A DNA stretch of 18,295 nucleotides. It comes from Pararhodospirillum photometricum DSM 122. GTDB taxonomy: Bacteria; Pseudomonadota; Alphaproteobacteria; Rhodospirillales; Rhodospirillaceae. Location of the stretch: assembly GCF_000284415.1 (NCBI RefSeq), contig NC_017059.1, forward strand, positions 1,358,438 to 1,376,732, read 5' to 3'. The translations under genes were made by a program, and so were the position numbers. Below the pieces are notes generated by a model. That model had not been told where the DNA came from and ran no database searches. It was given only the letters and a program-made list of their open reading frames with translations. Shown here piece by piece: positions 2,156 through 17,150 of the stretch (positions are counted from its first letter, which is position 1; each line of letters begins with the position of its first letter).

Positions 2156-2232
2156 GCGGGTGTAGCTCAGTTGGTTAGAGCGCTGGCCTGTCACGCCAGA
2201 GGTCGCGGGTTCAAGTCCCGTCACTCGCGCCA
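2156..2232 (+). tRNA. tRNA-Asp (anticodon GTC), copy 2
   Basis: This is an exact 77-nt duplicate of the tRNA at 2042-2118, with the same GTC anticodon, G discriminator and encoded CCA. The 37-nt spacer has a short T-run but no strong hairpin, so both tRNAs are probably processed from one precursor ending at the terminator just downstream. Confidence 0.97.
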
Positions 2233-7291: not shown

Positions 7292-8337
7292 GCGGCCTCC
7301 GGGGCAGGGGGGAAGCGCCGGTGGCGGGCCATCTCGGCCGCAAGGCGCAAGGCCGCCATCAGGCTGTCGGGACGGGCGGTGCCCTGGCCGGCCAGGCCAA
7401 AGGCGGTCCCGTGGTCGGGCGAGGTCCGCACAAAGGGCAGGCCCAGCGTCACGTTGACCCCTCCATGAAAATCCAGGGTCTTGATCGGGATCAGGGCTTG
7501 GTCGTGGAGCATGCACAGGGCCACGTCGTAGTCGGCGCGGGCCTCGGCATGAAACAAGGTATCAGCCGGCAGGGGGCCGCGCACGTCGAGCCCAGCCGCG
7601 CGCAACGCGGCCACCGCCGGGGCAATCACGTCGCGGTCCTCGGTCCCCAAGGTGCCGTCTTCCCCGGCATGAGGGTTGAGGCCGGCCACCGCCAGACGCG
7701 GACGAACCAGCCCGAAGTCGCGGGTCAAGGCCGCCGCCGTCAGGTGGGCGGTGGTCTCGATCAGCGCCGGCGTGAGCTGATCAAGGGCGCGACGCACCGA
7801 GATATGCACCGTGACCGGCACCACCCGCAAGCCGGGGCACGCCAGCATCATCACGGGCTGACAGGGCGCCCCAGGCCAGTGGCGTTGGGCCAACACCCCC
7901 AGAAACTCGGTATGCCCGGGATAGGCAAAGCCACCCTCTTGCATCAGGCGCTTGTGCAGCGGCAAGGTGACAAGGCCCTCCACGGCGCCCTCGGCACACA
8001 GGGCCACCGCCGCCTCCAGGCACGCCTGCACCGCGGGCGCATTGGCTGCGGTGCCCTGGCCGGGCAAAACCGGTTGGGCCAAGCCCCGGGATATCGGCAG
8101 CACGGGCAGGGCGCGGTCGAACACGGCGCGGGCGGCGGCCGGGTGGTCCACGACCGCGACCGGCCCCAGACCGAGGGCCTGGGCGATGCCCTGGATCCAG
8201 TCGGGATCGGCGATCAGGACGAAGGGCGGCAGCGCGTCGGCCCGGCGGCTCCAGGCCATCAGGGCGATCTCGCCGCCGATGCCAGCCGGCTCGCCCATGC
8301 TCAGGGCGAGCAACGGCGCCGCCTCAGATCCGCACAT
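7288..8337 (-). CDS. pdxA: 4-hydroxythreonine-4-phosphate dehydrogenase PdxA
   Basis: This 349-aa cytoplasmic enzyme oxidises 4-phosphohydroxy-L-threonine in the DXP-dependent route to pyridoxal phosphate, using NAD and a divalent metal. The sequence shows the N-terminal [14 protein letters not shown], the YPGHTEFLG segment, and the three metal-binding histidines expected for the family at His178 (VHIS), His223 (NPHAGE) and His278 (LHDQ). [20 protein letters not shown] follows and then PDHGTAFG. The length is slightly above usual (about 330). ATG 8337 lies 14 nt inside the end of surA, and the stop overlaps rsmA, so translation is probably coupled through the operon. The pairing with surA and rsmA is conserved in many proteobacteria. 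Confidence 0.96.
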
Positions 8338-9646
8338 CGATCAGGGCCTGCTGGCGAAGGTCGCGCAACCGGCGCTGGGCCAAGCCTTCGAGCTTTTGCT
8401 GGGCCAGACGCTCGTGCAGCGCATTGCGGTCGGGCAAGCCGCCCGTGGGCCGGTCGCAGACCATCATGACCAGATCGGCGCCTTCGACGCTCAAGCGCGG
8501 CGAGGGCTGGCCCACGGGCAAATCGCGCACCGCGTCGCGGATCGGCGGCGGCAGGCGCTGGGGATCCACCGGCCCCAGGGAGCCCGAGGGCGGGCCAATC
8601 TCGCGGGCCAGGGCGTCGAACGCCTCGCAACCCCGGATGTTTTTGAGACGGGCTTCGGCGTTTTGCCGCACCTCGGCCTTCACGGCCTGGGGGCCGCGGG
8701 TAATCAGCACCAAGCGGGACATCGGCCATGCGCTGGTGTTTTGCTGGCCGGCCAGCCGGCGGTCCCGCAGCAGCACGATATGATAGCCGCCAAAGGTGCG
8801 GATGGGCTGGGAGAGGTTCCCCGGCGCCATCTGTCCCAGAACCCCCAACAGATCCTGATCGACATCGCCGGGGCCGACCCAGCCGAGATCGCCGCCTTTT
8901 TGGGCGGAGGGCCCGCGCGAGAACTGCCGGGCGAGGGCGGCGAAGTTGGCGCCTTGGCGCAACTGGTCGATCAGACGGGCTCCGGCGCTTTGGACCTCGG
9001 CATCCTGGGCGGGATCATCGACGGCGAGAAAGATGTCGGCTACCAGATACTCGGGTTGGCCCAGATTGCGCTTGAGGTTGTTTTCGTAGATCGCAACTTC
9101 CTCATCCGAGACATTGACGCGTGGAACCAAGGTTTTTTGTACAACCTTGATCCACCCCATTTCGGCGCGCACCTGGCGCTCCAGGCTGCCCCAGTCGAGG
9201 CCGGCCTCCTTGAAGGCTTTTCGCAGGCCGCCCGGTGGCAGGTTGTTTTGCCCTTCCAGCCGCTTCACGCCTTGCTCAATGTCCTCGGGCCCCACGCTGA
9301 TCTTGACCCGCTCCACTTCCTGGAGCTTCAGGGTTTCGTCGATCAGGGCACGCAGGATCTGGGGCGCGAGGCGCTGGCGGATTTCCGGGGAATTGGGCAG
9401 GCGGCTGGTCGCCATCACGATATCCATGCGGGCGTTCAAGTCGCGCAGGGACACGGCATCTTGATTGATCACCGCCGCGATGCGCTCCGCGCCCGCCGTC
9501 GGAGCCGCCGCCGGTCGGTCGGCCCCGGTCGCCGAAGCCGCCAGAACTGGGGAGACCAGGGGGAGGGGGATCAGGGTCAGGGCCAGCCCCAGCAGCGCGG
9601 CCCGCCCGGAGCGGGGAAACGATCGAAGGGAAACGAAGTGCTCCAC
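8324..9646 (-). CDS. surA: Periplasmic chaperone / PpiC-type prolyl isomerase SurA
   Basis: SurA escorts outer-membrane proteins, including LptD, through the periplasm. The 440-aa product has a signal peptide (hydrophobic ALLGLALTLIPLPLV, cleavage near VLA-ASA at ~36-37). The SurA N-domain covers ~53-180 (IAAVINQDAVSLRDLNAR, ILRALIDETLKLQE), and one clear PpiC rotamase domain lies at ~198-295 (YLVADIFLA, FAALARQFSRGPSAQKGGDL, GWVGPGDV, FGGYHIVLLRDR). A second parvulin-like region, ~308-410, is less conserved. The start is GTG 9646, 12 nt after the lptD stop, with a GAGG upstream. Its place directly after lptD and before pdxA and rsmA is the usual operon order. Confidence 0.94.
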   Translation of the reverse strand: MEHFVSLRSFPRSGRAALLGLALTLIPLPLVSPVLAASATGADRPAAAPTAGAERIAAVINQDAVSLRDLNARMDIVMATSRLPNSPEIRQRLAPQILRALIDETLKLQEVERVKISVGPEDIEQGVKRLEGQNNLPPGGLRKAFKEAGLDWGSLERQVRAEMGWIKVVQKTLVPRVNVSDEEVAIYENNLKRNLGQPEYLVADIFLAVDDPAQDAEVQSAGARLIDQLRQGANFAALARQFSRGPSAQKGGDLGWVGPGDVDQDLLGVLGQMAPGNLSQPIRTFGGYHIVLLRDRRLAGQQNTSAWPMSRLVLITRGPQAVKAEVRQNAEARLKNIRGCEAFDALAREIGPPSGSLGPVDPQRLPPPIRDAVRDLPVGQPSPRLSVEGADLVMMVCDRPTGGLPDRNALHERLAQQKLEGLAQRRLRDLRQQALIDVRI

Positions 9647-9658
9647 GACGGGCCTCGG

Positions 9659-11965
9659 TCAACTGGAGGAGTCGCCCAGGCTGGGCGAGAAGGAGTAAGA
9701 GCCTAGCGTTTTCAGGGTCAGGGTGAACATCAGCGTTGTCCCTCCCTTGACATCGTATTCAACCGTGTGGTCTCGCGTATAAGTTGTGGCGATGCTGAGG
9801 CATTCGTCGTCGTACCCCACGGCAAGGGCCGTGCGCACCGATTTGTTCCGGTCGAAGCTGTATGTGTGGGCGCCCGATACGACCCAGTGACGCGCAACGC
9901 GGGTCGCCCCGAAGCCGGTGATTTCCTGCCGATCCTTGAGGACGTCGCCATCCAGCGTGGTGGTGGTGTCGGCGTACAGGTAATTGACACCGCCGTTGAC
10001 CAAGGTATTGCCCCCGGAGAGGCGCAGGACATGACGCTGCGGCACGAGGCTGTCGTGGTCAAGCTGGGTGTCGTACTGCATGCTGAGATGGGCGGACGGC
10101 GTATAGCGGATGCGCGCCACCACGTCGGACAGTGTGTGGTCCAGGCCCGAGCCGGCGCGAAACAAGTCGGTGTCGGTGCCCAGGCGATAGGACTGGCCGG
10201 CCTCGATGTCGAGCACATCGCCCTTGTCGCCGGCATAGGCATAGCGCAGCGAGTAGGCGGTCCATTCGCCACCCTCCACCCGGTCATGGCCGGGCACGCG
10301 CGAGGGCTGAAACAAGTTGCCCACATCCAAAGTGACCACCCGACTGTCCTCGTTGGGAATCTCGTCGGGGTTGTTGTCGGGCAGGGCGGCAAACACCCCC
10401 ACTTTCGGTTCGATCACCTGGGAATAGCCGGCCCCCGTCGCGATCAGGGGGTGGCGCCAGATCACCCCGCCCTGAGGCACCACCCGCGCCACCGAGCCAT
10501 CGAAACGGTGACCCGAGTCGAGGGTTTGATCGACCACGTGATAGAAGTCCCCGCGCACTGCCGCCAGGGCGGTGATCTCGTTGCCCAAGCCGTCGCGCAG
10601 GGGCACCGAATAGCGTGAGCCCACACTCACCCGCTCGGAATCTGTGCCCGAGGGTCGGCGCAGCACCACGCTGTTGAGCGCCGTCTCCACGTGGCCATTC
10701 GACCATAACGGGTCGGAGAGCAAGGTCATGTCGGCCAGCAGCGGCACGGCGGTCATGCCCGATTGGGCTACCCCTTCCGTCACCGACTGGAAGTAAAATC
10801 CCTCCACCGAGGCGCTGGAGCGCAGGCCGAAGCCCTCCAAGCTCAGATGGTTCGTCAGGTAGTCCACGTTGTTGGGCGGGGAAACGTCGATGCGGCGCAG
10901 GTAGACCGGCCGCGTCGTCAGGGAGCTTTCCAGCGAGGCGCGCCACACCGGGTCCAGGTGCCAAGTGGCCTTGGAGGCATAATATCCCTGGGTCCAGCCG
11001 TCCTCGTCATAGGGATTGAAAGAGCCGTTGAACGTCAGAGCCCCCCGGCTGAAGTTGCGATTCAGGTCGCCTTTTAAGATGGCGTACTGCTTTTCGGTAT
11101 ATTGCAGCGTCAGCTTGGCATCGGAGTGGTCGTCGAACACAAGATAATAGGGCAGTTGAAGCTCGCCCCCCAGGCGGTCGGACGACCCGGTTGAGGGGGC
11201 CAGAAAACCAGAGCGGCGGTACACCGTGGAGTCGGCTTGGCTCAGATAGGGCGTGTAGAGCACCGGCACTCCGAACGCCTCAATCCAGGCATCGTGAAAC
11301 ACGACCTCCTGCTCGGCCTCGTCGTGCGTGACCCGCGCCGCCTTGACCTGCCAACTGGGCGGGGGCTGCCGGGGGCCGTCGCGTCGTCCGGTCAGGGTGG
11401 GCAGCGGCGAGGCCTCGCCCGAGCACGAGTCGCACGCCGTGTAAACCCCGCGGGCAAACTCCTTTTTTTGGGTCTGCGACGAGCGTTCGCCATACAGCGC
11501 CGCCAGCCGGGTTCCCGACGGCGACAGGATCTGAATGCCGCGCACAAATCCGTCGCGCAAATCGCCGGTCAGTTCCATGTAATCGGCAAAGGTTGTCTCG
11601 GGCCCCTGGGCCGGCGCCGGCGTGCCGGGCAGTGTCCGCTCGGTCAGCGAGACATGGCCCGAGGCCGTGACCATTTTATCGACGGTGTTGTAGGTCACCA
11701 CGTCGGCCCGCAGCACCTTGGGGCCGCTCACCACCACCACGTTGCCGCGCGCCGTCACCACACCCAGGTCGTCGTCGCGCGTCAGGCTGTCGGCATCGAC
11801 CAGGGTTTCGCCCTCGGGCACGGGATCGCTTTGAACAGCGAGCGTCTGCGTGGGGGCCGCCGGCGCCGGTTTGGCGGGGGCCAAGGCCGGCGGCAGTACC
11901 GGTTTCTTGGGGGCCGCGGGCGGCGCCGCCTGGATCGACGCCGACGGAACCGGGGCGGCGACCAC
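9659..11965 (-). CDS. lptD: LPS-assembly protein LptD, lacking a visible signal peptide
   Basis: LptD is the outer-membrane beta-barrel that, with LptE, inserts lipopolysaccharide into the outer leaflet. The periplasmic beta-jellyroll is clear (DADSLTRDDDLGVVTARGNV, VLRADVVTYNTVDKMVTASG, ADYMELTGDLRDGFV), followed by the barrel (PVLYTPYLSQADSTVYRRSG through the C-terminal strand LMFTLTLKTLG). A Cys pair is present (TACDSCSG). The start is uncertain. GTG 11965 gives 768 aa with an Ala/Pro-rich leader but no hydrophobic signal peptide, which an outer-membrane protein needs. Further upstream the frame stays open to 12565 only as a shadow of the polyketide synthase on the other strand. The lptF/lptG genes often found upstream are absent. 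The 5' end has probably been lost at a junction near 11,970. Confidence 0.88.
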   Translation of the reverse strand: MVAAPVPSASIQAAPPAAPKKPVLPPALAPAKPAPAAPTQTLAVQSDPVPEGETLVDADSLTRDDDLGVVTARGNVVVVSGPKVLRADVVTYNTVDKMVTASGHVSLTERTLPGTPAPAQGPETTFADYMELTGDLRDGFVRGIQILSPSGTRLAALYGERSSQTQKKEFARGVYTACDSCSGEASPLPTLTGRRDGPRQPPPSWQVKAARVTHDEAEQEVVFHDAWIEAFGVPVLYTPYLSQADSTVYRRSGFLAPSTGSSDRLGGELQLPYYLVFDDHSDAKLTLQYTEKQYAILKGDLNRNFSRGALTFNGSFNPYDEDGWTQGYYASKATWHLDPVWRASLESSLTTRPVYLRRIDVSPPNNVDYLTNHLSLEGFGLRSSASVEGFYFQSVTEGVAQSGMTAVPLLADMTLLSDPLWSNGHVETALNSVVLRRPSGTDSERVSVGSRYSVPLRDGLGNEITALAAVRGDFYHVVDQTLDSGHRFDGSVARVVPQGGVIWRHPLIATGAGYSQVIEPKVGVFAALPDNNPDEIPNEDSRVVTLDVGNLFQPSRVPGHDRVEGGEWTAYSLRYAYAGDKGDVLDIEAGQSYRLGTDTDLFRAGSGLDHTLSDVVARIRYTPSAHLSMQYDTQLDHDSLVPQRHVLRLSGGNTLVNGGVNYLYADTTTTLDGDVLKDRQEITGFGATRVARHWVVSGAHTYSFDRNKSVRTALAVGYDDECLSIATTYTRDHTVEYDVKGGTTLMFTLTLKTLGSYSFSPSLGDSSS

Positions 11966-11990
11966 GTCGGCCCTTGGCAGCGGCCTTGCG
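11950..11990. other. Probable rearrangement or assembly junction
   Basis: Here the minus-strand lptD and the plus-strand polyketide synthase meet head to head. Recognisable LptD-type sequence ends about 11,965, and polyketide synthase linker sequence (LAAALRGVARTGG) begins about 11,974. There is no space for promoters or ribosome binding sites. LptD lacks its signal peptide and the synthase lacks its ketosynthase. The exact base of the join cannot be fixed from one sequence. Confidence 0.6.
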
Positions 11991-14900
11991 GGGGGTGGCC
12001 CGCACGGGCGGGCGGTGCGCCGAGGTGCGGCACGGCGGCCCGGTCTTGTTTGTCTTTTCCGGCATGGGGCCGCAGTGGCCGGGCATGGGCCGGATGCTGG
12101 CGGCGAGCGAGCCGGTGTTTCGCCAGACGCTGGAGGAAATCGACGCCCTCTGGGCCCCGCTGGCCGGATTTTCCCTGAGCGCCACCCTCCTGGCGGGCGA
12201 GACCCCCGATGCGCCTTGGCCCTGTCGCTTGGCCCAGCCTGCGGGCTTTGCTTTCCAGTGCGCCGTGGTGCGGGTTCTGGCCCGCCACGGCCTGCGGCCC
12301 GACGGATGCCTGGGCCATTCGGCCGGGGAGGTGGCCGCCGCTTTTTGCGCCGGGCACCTGAGCTTGGAGGACGCCGTGCGGGTGTGCTGGGCGCGCTCCC
12401 GGTTGCAAGATCAGCGGGCCGGCCGGGGGGGCTTGCTGGCGGTGCGGCTGCCCCAGGCGGCGGTGGCGGCGCTGCAAGAGCAGGTGCCGGGGCTGGCCCT
12501 GGCCGCGCTGAATGGCCCAACGGCCCTGACGCTCGCCGGATCCAACGCGGTTCTGGCCGAGGCACAGGCGCTGTTGCGCCGCCAAGGCGTGCCCTGGCGC
12601 CGGTTGCCTGGGGAGATCGCGTATCACAGTGCCGACATGGACCCGCTGGAAGCGCCCTTGCGCGCGGCCCTGGCGGGGCTTGCGCCGCGGGAGCCGTCGC
12701 TTCTGCTGTTCTCCAGTGTGACCGCCCGACGAGTTTCGGTCGAGGCGGGGATGGAGGCCGCCTATTGGTGGGACAATGTGCGCCAGCCCGTGCGGTTTCA
12801 CGAAGCGCTGGCGGCCGCTTTTGCCTTGGGCGTGCGCCACTGCTTGGAGATTGGGGCCCGACCGGTGTTGCAAGGTCCGCTGCGCGAGGCGGCGCGCGCG
12901 CAGACCCAGCCTATCGTGGTCCTGCCCGTCTTGGACGGCGGGCCCGACGAGGCGGCGGCGCTGCACCACGCCCTGGCCCGCCACTACGAGAGCGGGGGAG
13001 GGCTCGACTGGCGGGCCCAGGCGCCCGAGGGCCGGCTGGTCGGGCTGCCCGTGACCGCGTGGCAGCGCCGGCCGTTCTGGCACGAAGCCGAGGTGCAGGC
13101 CTTGGACCGGCGGGGCGATCCGGCGGCCAGTCCATGGGCCGAGCCGGCCGCCCAGCCGCGCACGTGGCGGGCCGACCTTAATCGAACTCTTTTTGCCTTT
13201 CTCGCGGATCACCGGATCGAGGGCGTGCCGGTCCTGCCCGGCGCGGCGGCTTTGGAGGCCGCACTCCAGGCCGGGCAGGCGGCCGGAGCCTTTGCCGCCG
13301 ACACGCCGTTGTGTCTTGAAGCCTGTCGCTTTCCGGGTCTTTTTCCGTTGACCCGACGCCACGAGCAGGTTCTTGACAGCCGCGTGGTGGCCGAGGCGCT
13401 GGAGGTTCTGGCCTACGATCCGGCCCGGCCGGCACACGTCACCCGGGTTCTCACGGCCCGGATTGGGGAGGCAGCGCCGCGCCCTGCGGCCTGCGTGGTG
13501 GGCGATCTCGCCGCCCGGGCCCCGCATCCGGTTGACCTGGAGGCGCAGCGGGCGCGGCTAGGGCATGGCCCGGCGTTTCAGGGGCCGTCTTTCCTCTCCC
13601 TGGCGGCGGATGGCGGCGCAGCCTTGGCCCGGATCAGCCTTCATCGGCCGAGTTGTCCGGTTCCCGAGGTCCAGGGGGTGCCGGCCTTGCTCGACGGGGT
13701 GTTTCAGGCCGCCTTGGCCTTGCGGGTGGGGGAGGGGGCGGTCGTTTTGACCGCCGTCCAGCGCCTGAGCGTGTACACCCCCCTGCCGGCCACGGTGTGG
13801 GCGTGGATTACGCTCGCCAGCGACGATTCTGCCTTGGGAGAGTGCAGCGCGTGGGTGCTGGACGACGACGGGGTCTGTCTGGCCCGGCTGGATGGGGTGA
13901 CGGCCCGGCCCTTGCGGCGGCTCACGTCCCCCATTCCCCGGCCCGACTTTTTTCGGGCGCCGGGCTGGGAGGTCGTCCCGGTCCAGCCAGATCCCCCTGC
14001 CGCCTTCGGGGGGCGGCCGGTGCGTGTGGTTGCCCCGGCCGGGCCGCAGGCCGAGCGCTTGAAGAACGCGCTGGGGGCGGTGGCTCCGGCCGTCGAGGTG
14101 ACGCTTCTCCCTATGGCGCCGCTGGTCGAGGGGCTGGCCACGCTCCTGGCCTTGGGGGGGGAGCCGGGCCGGGGGCGGTTATGTTTCCTGACCCACGATG
14201 CCCAGCCGGTGACGCCCCAAGATCAGGTCCGGCCCGATCAGGCGGCGGTGTGGGGGCTGGGGCGTGCGTTGTGCAACGACATCGGCGATGTTTCGCTGAT
14301 TGATGTTACGAGCGCGGATTCCTGGGCCGAGGGGCCGGCACTGGAGCGTCTTTGGCAGGAGATTGGGGCCGGAGTTCCGGCGATCGCCCTGCGGGCCGGG
14401 CAGCGCTATCGCCCGTGTTTTGTCCCGGTTGCCGAGTCCGAGGACGCGCCGTGGCGGGGCGATCCTGGCCGCAGCTATCTGGTGACGGGCGGGCTTGGCG
14501 GCTTTGGTCAGGCCCTGGCCCTGTGGCTGGTCCGCCACGGTGCCGGGCGGGTTGTGCTGACGAGCCGGTCGGTGCCATCCCAGGCCCGGGTGGCGCCGCT
14601 GGCCCGCGCCGTGGGCTGTCTGGGGGGCGAGATGGCGGTTCGACCCCTGGATGTGACCGATCCTCAGGCGGTGCGCGCCCTGATGCGGGAGTTGGCGAGG
14701 ACCGATCGTCCCTTGGCCGGGGTGTTTCACTGGGCCGGCCAGACCCGCGACCGGCCGGCCCGTGACCTCACCGAGGCCGATGTGCGCGCGGTGCTGGCGC
14801 CCAAGGTGGAGGGTGCCCTGGCCCTGCATCAGGCCAGTCTGGATCTGGGGATTGAGACCTTTGTGATGGCGTCGTCCTTGAGTGCCCTCCTGGGCACGCC

Positions 14901-15312
14901 GCGTCAGGCGGCGTATGCGGCGGCCAATGCCTTTCTCGATGGCTTGGCCTGGGCGCGCCACCGCGCCGGTCTTCCGACGCTCAGTGTCAATTTTGGTCCG
15001 ATTGCCGGGGTGGGCATGGCAGCGTCGGCCCCGGTTGCGGCTTTTTTGAGCGCGGCGGGCCTGCCGCTCCTTGACCCGGCGGTTGCCTTGGCGGGCTTGG
15101 GCGCGGCCTTGCGCTCGGGGCGGCCCCAGATCTGTCTTGCCCGCGCGTTCGACACGGCCCGCTGGGAACGCAGGAGACCTCGCCTGCGCCTGGGAAGGGA
15201 GGGGGAAAGCGACGGCGAGCGGGGGCGGCGGCTCGCGCTCCAGTGCCGGGACCTGCTGGCCGGGATCATCAAAAACCTCCCCCGATCACCTGTCCCTGGA
15301 CACCCCGCTTGA
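11974..15312 (+). CDS. Type I polyketide synthase, AT-DH-KR, ketosynthase missing
   Basis: This 1112-aa frame carries polyketide synthase domains in normal order but starts at the acyltransferase. The AT domain (~22-315) has FVFSGMGPQWPGM, the nucleophile Ser116 in GHSAGE and His218 in AYHSADMDP. The DH domain (~395-650) has the HxxxGxxxxP motif from His413 (HRIEGVPVLP), HGPAFQG, and Asp574 in DGVFQ. A structural pseudo-KR covers ~670-820. The KR domain (~830-1060) has TGGLGGFG for NADPH, plus Lys944, Ser967/968, Tyr981 and Asn985. There is no enoylreductase. The TTG at 11974 has no ribosome binding site and I doubt it is the real start; an upstream KS is expected. The frame ends at 15312 because of a one-base shift; its ACP continues in the next frame to 15460. 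The acyl unit cannot be predicted with confidence. Confidence 0.9.
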   Translation: MAAALRGVARTGGRCAEVRHGGPVLFVFSGMGPQWPGMGRMLAASEPVFRQTLEEIDALWAPLAGFSLSATLLAGETPDAPWPCRLAQPAGFAFQCAVVRVLARHGLRPDGCLGHSAGEVAAAFCAGHLSLEDAVRVCWARSRLQDQRAGRGGLLAVRLPQAAVAALQEQVPGLALAALNGPTALTLAGSNAVLAEAQALLRRQGVPWRRLPGEIAYHSADMDPLEAPLRAALAGLAPREPSLLLFSSVTARRVSVEAGMEAAYWWDNVRQPVRFHEALAAAFALGVRHCLEIGARPVLQGPLREAARAQTQPIVVLPVLDGGPDEAAALHHALARHYESGGGLDWRAQAPEGRLVGLPVTAWQRRPFWHEAEVQALDRRGDPAASPWAEPAAQPRTWRADLNRTLFAFLADHRIEGVPVLPGAAALEAALQAGQAAGAFAADTPLCLEACRFPGLFPLTRRHEQVLDSRVVAEALEVLAYDPARPAHVTRVLTARIGEAAPRPAACVVGDLAARAPHPVDLEAQRARLGHGPAFQGPSFLSLAADGGAALARISLHRPSCPVPEVQGVPALLDGVFQAALALRVGEGAVVLTAVQRLSVYTPLPATVWAWITLASDDSALGECSAWVLDDDGVCLARLDGVTARPLRRLTSPIPRPDFFRAPGWEVVPVQPDPPAAFGGRPVRVVAPAGPQAERLKNALGAVAPAVEVTLLPMAPLVEGLATLLALGGEPGRGRLCFLTHDAQPVTPQDQVRPDQAAVWGLGRALCNDIGDVSLIDVTSADSWAEGPALERLWQEIGAGVPAIALRAGQRYRPCFVPVAESEDAPWRGDPGRSYLVTGGLGGFGQALALWLVRHGAGRVVLTSRSVPSQARVAPLARAVGCLGGEMAVRPLDVTDPQAVRALMRELARTDRPLAGVFHWAGQTRDRPARDLTEADVRAVLAPKVEGALALHQASLDLGIETFVMASSLSALLGTPRQAAYAAANAFLDGLAWARHRAGLPTLSVNFGPIAGVGMAASAPVAAFLSAAGLPLLDPAVALAGLGAALRSGRPQICLARAFDTARWERRRPRLRLGREGESDGERGRRLALQCRDLLAGIIKNLPRSPVPGHPA

Positions 15313-15460
15313 TCGCCTGGGACTCGACTCTCTGGCGGCGGTCGAGTTTCAGGCCGCCGTTGAACGGGACCTGGGCCACGTCATGCCCCTGGCCGCGCTC
15401 TTGGGCGGGCAAACCCTGCTCGACCTCGCGGCCGCCATGGTCTGCGCCGATCCATCCTAA
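15272..15460 (+). pseudogene. ACP domain of the polyketide synthase, in the +1 frame
   Basis: These 62 residues complete the synthase at 11974 but lie in the next reading frame. They hold the phosphopantetheine site LGLDSLAAVEF, whose Ser carries the growing chain, and a typical carrier-protein helix end (ALLGGQTLLDLAAAM). The upstream frame reads DLLAGIIK just before an A5 tract (15271-15275) and a C5 tract (15279-15283). Dropping one base from either joins it smoothly to SPDHLSLDTPLDRLGLDSL. The whole span 11974-15460 is one base over a multiple of three. There is no start codon or ribosome binding site for this piece alone, so as written the synthase would end without its carrier domain. 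Confidence 0.85.
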
Positions 15461-15477: not shown

Positions 15478-15513
15478 GAGGGGTCTGGGGAGGCCCGCCT
15501 CCCCAGCCTTCCC
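15478..15513. repeat. GC-rich palindrome, copy 5
   Basis: GAGGGGTCTGGGGAGG-CCCG-CCTCCCCAGCCTTCCC. The perfect stem CTGGGGAGG (15485-15493) / CCTCCCCAG (15498-15506) begins 25 nt after the polyketide synthase stop, within a conserved repeat unit that starts at 15478. It is the reverse complement of the 17157 copy, so the two form an inverted pair around the ACP-KAS genes. No T-run follows. Confidence 0.78.
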
Positions 15514-15649: not shown

Positions 15650-15919
15650 ATGAAAAACGAGATCCTGAGCCTGATCGCCGACTTCCTGGAGGTCAAACCA
15701 GAAGAACTCCAAGACTATAAAACCCTGGAAGACCTTGATATCGATTCGCTCGATTTTGTCGAGATCATGTTTGAGATCGAAGAAAAATATGACGCCCCCG
15801 TCCTGAGCCATATGCAGCGCTGCCGTGACCAACTGCATACTCTGGGTGATGTCCTGAGCATGACCGAAGAGCTGATCCTCCAGCACCGGGGCGCGGGGCC
15901 GGCCCCCTCCCATGGATAA
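15650..15919 (+). CDS. Stand-alone acyl carrier protein
   Basis: This 89-aa carrier protein holds the growing acyl chain on phosphopantetheine attached to Ser33 in DIDSLDFVEIM. The helix I segment (ILSLIADFLEV) and the acidic helix II (EIMFEIEEKY) are typical, and the C-terminal helix is longer than usual. It differs from housekeeping AcpP in sequence, so it probably serves the adjacent KAS and perhaps the polyketide synthase. ATG 15650 follows GGAAGG by 7 nt. The end overlaps the KAS start by 8 nt, which indicates coupled translation. Its codons are visibly more A-rich than those of its neighbours, which may mean a different ancestry or strong expression. Confidence 0.94.
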   Translation: MKNEILSLIADFLEVKPEELQDYKTLEDLDIDSLDFVEIMFEIEEKYDAPVLSHMQRCRDQLHTLGDVLSMTEELILQHRGAGPAPSHG

Positions 15920-17150
15920 GCCCGCGCGCGTTGTCGTGACCGGCCTTGGGGTCTTGTCCGCCTTTGGTCAGGGCCGAGCCGAGTTCGAGGCGGGCCTGTT
16001 TGCCAGCGCCTCGGCCCTGCGCCCCATCACCAGCCTGGACACCAGCCGGTTTGCCTGCCATTGGGGCGGCGAACTTCCCGGGTTCGACACTCAAGGCTTG
16101 GTGCGCAAGGCCGATGCCCATTGCTACGACCGGGTCAGTCTGCTGGCCCTTGCCGCCGCCGACGAAGCCCTGGCCGAGGCCGGGCTGGATCCCCAGAGCA
16201 TCGGAGGACGGGCCGGCGTGATGATGGGCAGTGCCTTCGGGCCGGCGGCGTCCATCCAAGACGCGGTCGAGCGGGTCGCCCGGGACCAGCGGTTGCGACC
16301 GACCACCTTGCTCAAGATCATGCTCAACGGCCCCACCGCGGCCTTGGCCGCGCGCTATGGACTGGAGCGGGCCTCGACGGCCCATGTCACGGCCTGCGCC
16401 GCCTCGGGCCATGCCCTGGCCCAAGCGACCCGGTCCTTGCAACAAGGCGAGATGGACGTGTGTCTGGCCGGGGGCGCCGAGGCCTTTCCCGGGACCGCCC
16501 TCTTCGCCGCCTGGGATGCGCTCGCCGTCATGAGTCCGCAAACCGACCCGGCCACCGGGATCATGCGGCCTTTCACCCGCGAGCGGCAGGGCTTTGTCAT
16601 TGGCGAGGCCGCCGCTGTTTTGGTGCTGGAGCGCCTGGAGCACGCCCAAGCCCGCGGGGCTCGCATCCTGGGCGAGATCCTGGGCTCGGGCGCCGTGTCC
16701 GATACCCCCAGCTTGACCCGGCCCACCCAACGCGGCATGGCCGGCGCCATGCGGGCCGCCTTGGCGGATGCGGGCCTGAGCCCGGCGCAGGTTGGCCACA
16801 TCAACGCCCACGGCACCGCCACCGACCTGAACGACGCCCTGGAAAGCGCGGCGATTGCCGAGGTGTTTGGCGCGGGTCCCGTGGTGAGTGCCTGCAAGCC
16901 GGCCGTGGGGCATTGCATGGGGGCGGGCAGCGCGCTTGAGGCCGTCGCCACCGTGCTTGCCCTTCAGCGCCAGCAGGCTCCCCATGCCGTGGATCCCTTT
17001 TGGGAGGGGGTGGGTCTGGCGCCGGCGTGGCAGGGAGGCGGGCGGACCGTGCCGCTGGCGACCGATGTGGCCTTGTCCAACTCGTTTGCCTTTGGCGGGC
17101 ACTTTGTGTCGTTGGCGTTTCGGCGCTTTCCCGCCACGTCGGCGGGGTGA
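15912..17150 (+). CDS. Beta-ketoacyl-ACP synthase (FabF-type KAS II fold)
   Basis: This 412-aa condensing enzyme has every catalytic residue: Cys162 in TACAASG, His300 in NAHGTATDLND, and Lys329 and His334 in CKPAVGHCMGA. The glycine-rich end reads SNSFAFGGHFVSLAF. It would extend an ACP-bound acyl chain by decarboxylative condensation. The adjacent ACP, overlapped by 8 nt, is its likely carrier. The sequence departs from housekeeping FabF (for example GHFVS where GxN is usual), which points to a specialised pathway such as a polyketide, aryl polyene or unusual lipid. Because Cys162 is present it is not a chain-length factor. ATG 15912 has no clear Shine-Dalgarno sequence, as expected if translation is coupled. 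It might act in trans with the KS-less synthase upstream. Confidence 0.94.
   Translation: MDKPARVVVTGLGVLSAFGQGRAEFEAGLFASASALRPITSLDTSRFACHWGGELPGFDTQGLVRKADAHCYDRVSLLALAAADEALAEAGLDPQSIGGRAGVMMGSAFGPAASIQDAVERVARDQRLRPTTLLKIMLNGPTAALAARYGLERASTAHVTACAASGHALAQATRSLQQGEMDVCLAGGAEAFPGTALFAAWDALAVMSPQTDPATGIMRPFTRERQGFVIGEAAAVLVLERLEHAQARGARILGEILGSGAVSDTPSLTRPTQRGMAGAMRAALADAGLSPAQVGHINAHGTATDLNDALESAAIAEVFGAGPVVSACKPAVGHCMGAGSALEAVATVLALQRQQAPHAVDPFWEGVGLAPAWQGGGRTVPLATDVALSNSFAFGGHFVSLAFRRFPATSAG

Follow-up and report, generated by a model that had tools for sequence, protein, structure and literature searches.

The sister species Pararhodospirillum oryzae carries a whole LptD gene (P0002) with a squalene/phytoene synthase gene directly before it. 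In Novispirillum itersonii (NZ_JACIIX010000018.1), a single-module type I polyketide synthase (PKS) runs from a ketoacyl synthase (KS) through AT, DH, KR and acyl carrier protein (ACP) domains, and it is followed by a stand-alone ACP and then a stand-alone KS. The N. itersonii sequence has a G run inside its KS at a frame shift (L056:7284); therefore, two intact 1706-aa relatives (P0122 and P0123) were used as yardsticks. Unlike these genes, lptD of Pararhodospirillum photometricum DSM 122, a photosynthetic laboratory strain, is split across 0.41 Mb of the deposited record, and its PKS gene lies in two places 1.09 Mb apart. One piece of each gene meets the other head to head in the stretch of DNA analyzed here (the window; 18,295 bases, positions 1,358,438-1,376,732 of a 3,876,289-base single-contig genome record rated 100% complete). 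From sequence comparison, we consider it very likely that this junction is an assembly misjoin between mis-ordered scaffolds and not biology, and most likely that lptD and a KS-AT-DH-KR-ACP PKS gene are both whole in the cell. The genome is listed as HE663493.1, 3.88 Mb (PMC6292899), and no discussion of its assembly was found in the literature searched, including passages of that article.

An HMM of codon usage that had been trained on a 400-kb genome sample from P. photometricum switched from lptD on the minus strand to the PKS on the plus strand with zero noncoding bases between them (Table 1). The initial annotation had described a head-to-head junction that left neither gene space for a promoter or a ribosome binding site, and both points were borne out: the two frames are open as far as the join, and the coding segments abut without a gap. 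Read from the join, the lptD frame begins ADVVAAPVPSASIQ...; further upstream, it runs antisense to the PKS. A 601-base junction query matched only itself in the genome, with no repeat or insertion element spanning the join, and the junction region was absent from viral contigs (searched with an exact 36-base pattern) and from plasmids. Head-to-head abutment was considered as a marker of such joins and was rejected, since the P. oryzae control did not have fewer abutting divergent coding segments (six in 370,339 bases) than P. photometricum (four in 400,000 bases). The window join is distinctive in that it truncates two genes, the missing parts of which are both located elsewhere.

Table 1. 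Features of the window, displaced gene pieces and other suspect joins in the P. photometricum record (window positions unless marked as genome)
Feature	Position	Strand	Basis or description
surA-like gene after lptD	8324..9646	-	ORF list; similar ORF after lptD in P. oryzae
lptD 3' piece, lacking leader and N-terminal linker	9659..11971	-	Pfam LptD; P. oryzae alignment; HMM edge at 11971
Join	11971..11972 (genome 1,370,408/1,370,409)	.	Gapless HMM strand switch; junction query matches only itself
PKS AT-DH-KR piece without KS	11972..15312	+	Pfam AT, DH and KR; alignment from residue 501 of relatives
ACP end of PKS, other frame	15275..15460	+	HMM frame switch; Pfam PP-binding in second frame
Stand-alone acyl carrier protein of PKS unit	15650..15919	+	Pfam PP-binding; order as in N. 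itersonii
Stand-alone ketoacyl synthase of PKS unit	15912..17150	+	Pfam; collinear with N. itersonii gene
lptD 5' piece	1,781,027 to about 1,780,785 (genome)	-	Leader-like stretch; neighbor gene as in P. oryzae
Orphan KS of PKS	2,456,131 to about 2,457,522 (genome)	+	Complementary to window piece on relatives
Suspect join	L066:4270		Dihydrolipoamide acetyltransferase runs into last part (200-284 of 285) of IS5 transposase model
Suspect join	L081:14665		ALTTAQ repeats run into weak, below-cut-off PRK06034 match from position 59
Suspect join	L011:319		Phage capsid E stops at 166 of 329, beside end of EngA-type GTPase gene

The lptD gene in the window encodes the LptD barrel domain (PF04453; E value, 1.1e-37) and aligns with residues 190-953 of P. 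oryzae LptD, with 65% identity over this 3' piece; the ORF that follows it is, judging from its sequence, surA-like. The protein on file (P0001) has 768 aa and a GTG start at about position 11965. As the initial annotation stated, the gene lacks a signal peptide at the join: no hydrophobic leader was seen by eye in the reading frame. A hydrophobic leader-like stretch does open a displaced frame near 1.781 Mb, followed by sequence that resembles residues 75-129 of P. oryzae LptD. The match of this 5' piece to P. oryzae LptD is of moderate strength (score, 78), a score that shuffled sequences reached in 6 of 6,000, at least 1 of 500 (maximum, 83) and 0 of 5,000 trials; the neighboring gene is the stronger evidence. 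The P. photometricum ortholog of the P. oryzae squalene/phytoene synthase (73% identity) lies at 1,781,379-1,782,719, about 345 nt from the lptD 5' frame compared with 370 nt in P. oryzae, such that the upstream neighbor is common to both species. The search for a signal peptide end elsewhere in the genome that had been proposed was thus successful, although the end follows this synthase and not lptG. Nor was the expectation of lptF and lptG upstream of lptD upheld, since in P. oryzae that place is taken by the synthase, and the two LptF/LptG-family genes of P. photometricum, at 2,278,121 and 2,990,587, stand apart from each other. The 5' frame stops after 81 codons at a palindromic repeat, next to the tail of a carbon-nitrogen hydrolase gene that is whole and lies on the opposite strand. 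Because the 5' piece resembles residues 75-129 and the 3' piece starts at residue 190, some 60 codons are missing between them, a rough figure for a region of low complexity.

On the other side of the join, the PKS piece opens in the KS-AT linker, and Pfam found AT, DH and KR domains with no KS ahead of the AT, in agreement with the earlier reading of a KS-less PKS. The protein on file (P0121; 1082 aa, ATG start at position 12064) has an AT-DH-KR region about 50 to 52% identical to those of the N. itersonii PKS, P0122 and P0123. The record contains a frameshift at about 15275-15290, inside the ACP end, as judged from the HMM and Pfam. The order of the unit in the window is that of N. itersonii minus the first KS, and the stand-alone KS is collinear with its N. 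itersonii counterpart over residues 4-404 of 412, with 274 identical. A search for an orphan KS elsewhere in the genome had been proposed, and one was found: of six ketoacyl synthase places in P. photometricum, the one at 2,456,134 belongs to the frame in question. This frame starts MSRVAIIG, as in the relatives, and finishes in linker sequence; its two parts share 70% and 68% identity with the N. itersonii KS. A candidate ribosome binding site at its start was rejected, the purine run being too far from the ATG. On both intact relatives, the KS piece spans residues 1-461 and the alignment of the window piece starts at residue 501; these breakpoints are the same in the two proteins, and the pieces do not overlap. 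A genome-wide search for the 39-residue linker yielded no convincing match, only two weak partial ones (E values, 0.28 and 0.52); otherwise, the query matched the PKS piece of the window and had a weak match to an acyltransferase at 1.663 Mb.

The orphan KS gives way within a few bases to gpmI at about 2,457,522, which constitutes a third join. Residues 213-510 of 523 of gpmI are present, with 80% identity to P. oryzae, so about 212 codons are missing at this join. The N-terminal domain is whole in all three relatives searched, and no other match to the 5' part of gpmI was found anywhere in the P. photometricum record. The possibility that this part lies beside the ortholog of the neighbor of P. 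oryzae gpmI was rejected; by eye, transporter-like and dihydroorotase-like genes are there. Among the 29 loci of the relatives, the only match to the carbon-nitrogen hydrolase was a distant one (28%) that did not adjoin gpmI.

The palindrome at the end of the lptD 5' piece is REP-like (TGGGGAGGC-N0-6-GCCTCCCCA, with asymmetric flanks), and a copy lies at that one of the three joins. There are 601 copies in P. photometricum, 6 in P. oryzae, 4 in the genome G008 and 0 in the genome G011, with two copies in the window at 15486 and 17164. In the 400-kb sample, 55 of 60 copies lie in noncoding sequence, which makes up 16% of that sample, and nine neighboring pairs are 43 to 77 bases apart. One copy folds into a stem that is not clearly better than those of shuffled sequences (14 of 200 as good). 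The window also encodes a protein matching the catalytic domain of T6SS Tle1-like phospholipases (PF09994; 4956-6362, minus strand) and two identical tRNA genes separated by 40 bases (2042-2115 and 2156-2229, plus strand), over which an antisense ORF repeats a peptide.

The comparison shows which genes are cut, where and in which orientation their other parts lie, and that codons are missing; every piece is oriented as a single swap of two adjacent blocks requires. Between 1.370 and 2.458 Mb, the record very probably holds two blocks whose order has been exchanged, with no gap letters where they abut: block 1 would extend from 1,370,409 to about 1,780,783 and block 2 from about 1,780,784 to about 2,457,522 (about 410 and 677 kb). 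Swapping them back would need no inversion and would turn the record order C/D...A/B...E/F into C B...E D...A F, an order in which all three joins are removed. The lptD 3' piece, ending at 1,370,408, would then meet its 5' piece from about 1,780,784, the KS, ending at about 2,457,522, would meet the AT from 1,370,409, and, by elimination, the hydrolase tail would meet gpmI. This last adjacency is the inferred one, and relatives carry other genes before gpmI (GAF-GGDEF in N. itersonii and a LysR-type gene in relative G008). The 5' part of gpmI would fall in the hydrolase-gpmI gap, and the codons missing from the PKS (about 39), lptD (60) and gpmI (212) may reflect short unfilled gaps. The cause is very probably the scaffold order in the assembly rather than a real transposition. 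It had been proposed that both genes lost their 5' ends at one breakpoint, through an inversion, a deletion or an assembly chimera; the breakpoint stands, but the ends are displaced within the same record, at 2.457 and 1.781 Mb, and are not lost. A chimera is much the likelier of these origins, and an inversion is unneeded, since the pieces keep a fitting orientation. The initial annotation observed, correctly and sharply, something that is most likely an artifact.

The quality of the record itself is draft-like. The 400,000-base sample contains 21 Ns and 20 same-strand coding breaks without a stop, compared with 0 and 5, respectively, in the 370,339-base P. oryzae control; tail-to-tail events without a stop numbered 0 in the sample and 2 in the control. 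Same-strand breaks of this kind are a mixture of frameshifts and joins. There were 24 break events of all kinds in the sample, plus those from extra loci; 15 were written out (11 from the sample and 4 from the extra loci), and 11 of the 15 were scanned with family models, two by the left piece only. Three of these 11 look like joins of unrelated genes (Table 1), and the remaining eight are frameshift-like, intact-gene-like or not distinguishable. A search for the rest of the capsid gene at L011:319 gave four places, none of which was clearly the missing part. The record was presumably deposited as a draft. Across 29 stretches, GC skew and the KOPS motif are partly coherent along the record; this argues against contigs strung together at random and does not decide on the swap.

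A real transposition with three breaks, in which the 410- or the 677-kb segment moved and lptD, the PKS and gpmI were cut with loss of some DNA at each break, would give an identical geometry at the three joins, and for this reason the geometry alone is not decisive. Such an event also fits a record that consists of one contig and is rated 100% complete, a rating that counts against a misjoin, as does the occurrence of the 1082-aa AT-DH-KR protein in a 4,627-base contig as well, which might carry the true flank or this very join. However, each of the three breaks would interrupt a gene, and sequence is missing at every one. The event would also deprive LptD, which is usually essential, of its leader and leave the cell without an intact copy of gpmI, a central gene. 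Furthermore, no repeat or insertion element crosses the window join, and no 10-base word is shared among the three joins within 101 bases of each. We therefore favor the assembly reading on the strength of the gaps in coding sequence at the three joins, the essential or central roles of lptD and gpmI, the lack of a repeat at the window join or of a shared 10-base word, and the draft-like Ns and same-strand coding breaks. A transposition of this kind is very unlikely, and there is an equally slim chance that a recent one has been survived by a cell that has neither a conventional LptD leader nor a whole gpmI.

It can also be envisioned that the arrangement is natural and functional, with LptD starting from the internal GTG and exported in another way, and with a PKS that has no N-terminal KS and uses the downstream one. 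Both frames are open to the join and a stand-alone KS does lie downstream; however, in N. itersonii the unit includes an N-terminal KS besides the downstream one, the leader end of lptD is present elsewhere beside its usual neighbor, and promoters and ribosome binding sites would have no room between the genes. We regard this arrangement as scarcely credible.

If the junction is a misjoin, as we conclude is very probable, it would be wrong to take the LptD, PKS and gpmI entries of this record for natural truncations, and from 1.37 to 2.46 Mb the order of the genes is unfit for use in synteny or replichore studies until it has been checked. No second copy of LptD or of the KS piece from P. photometricum was present among the matches listed; databases may therefore rest on one record. 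Searching for the complementary parts of cut genes is a cheap detector of errors in scaffold order that leave no gap letters.

The case is reminiscent of scaffold misjoins or wrong scaffold order in draft bacterial genomes released as a single sequence, with which it shares cut genes, complementary and fitting parts elsewhere in the record, missing sequence, ambiguous bases and frameshift-like breaks; it differs from them in that no gap letters mark the P. photometricum joins.
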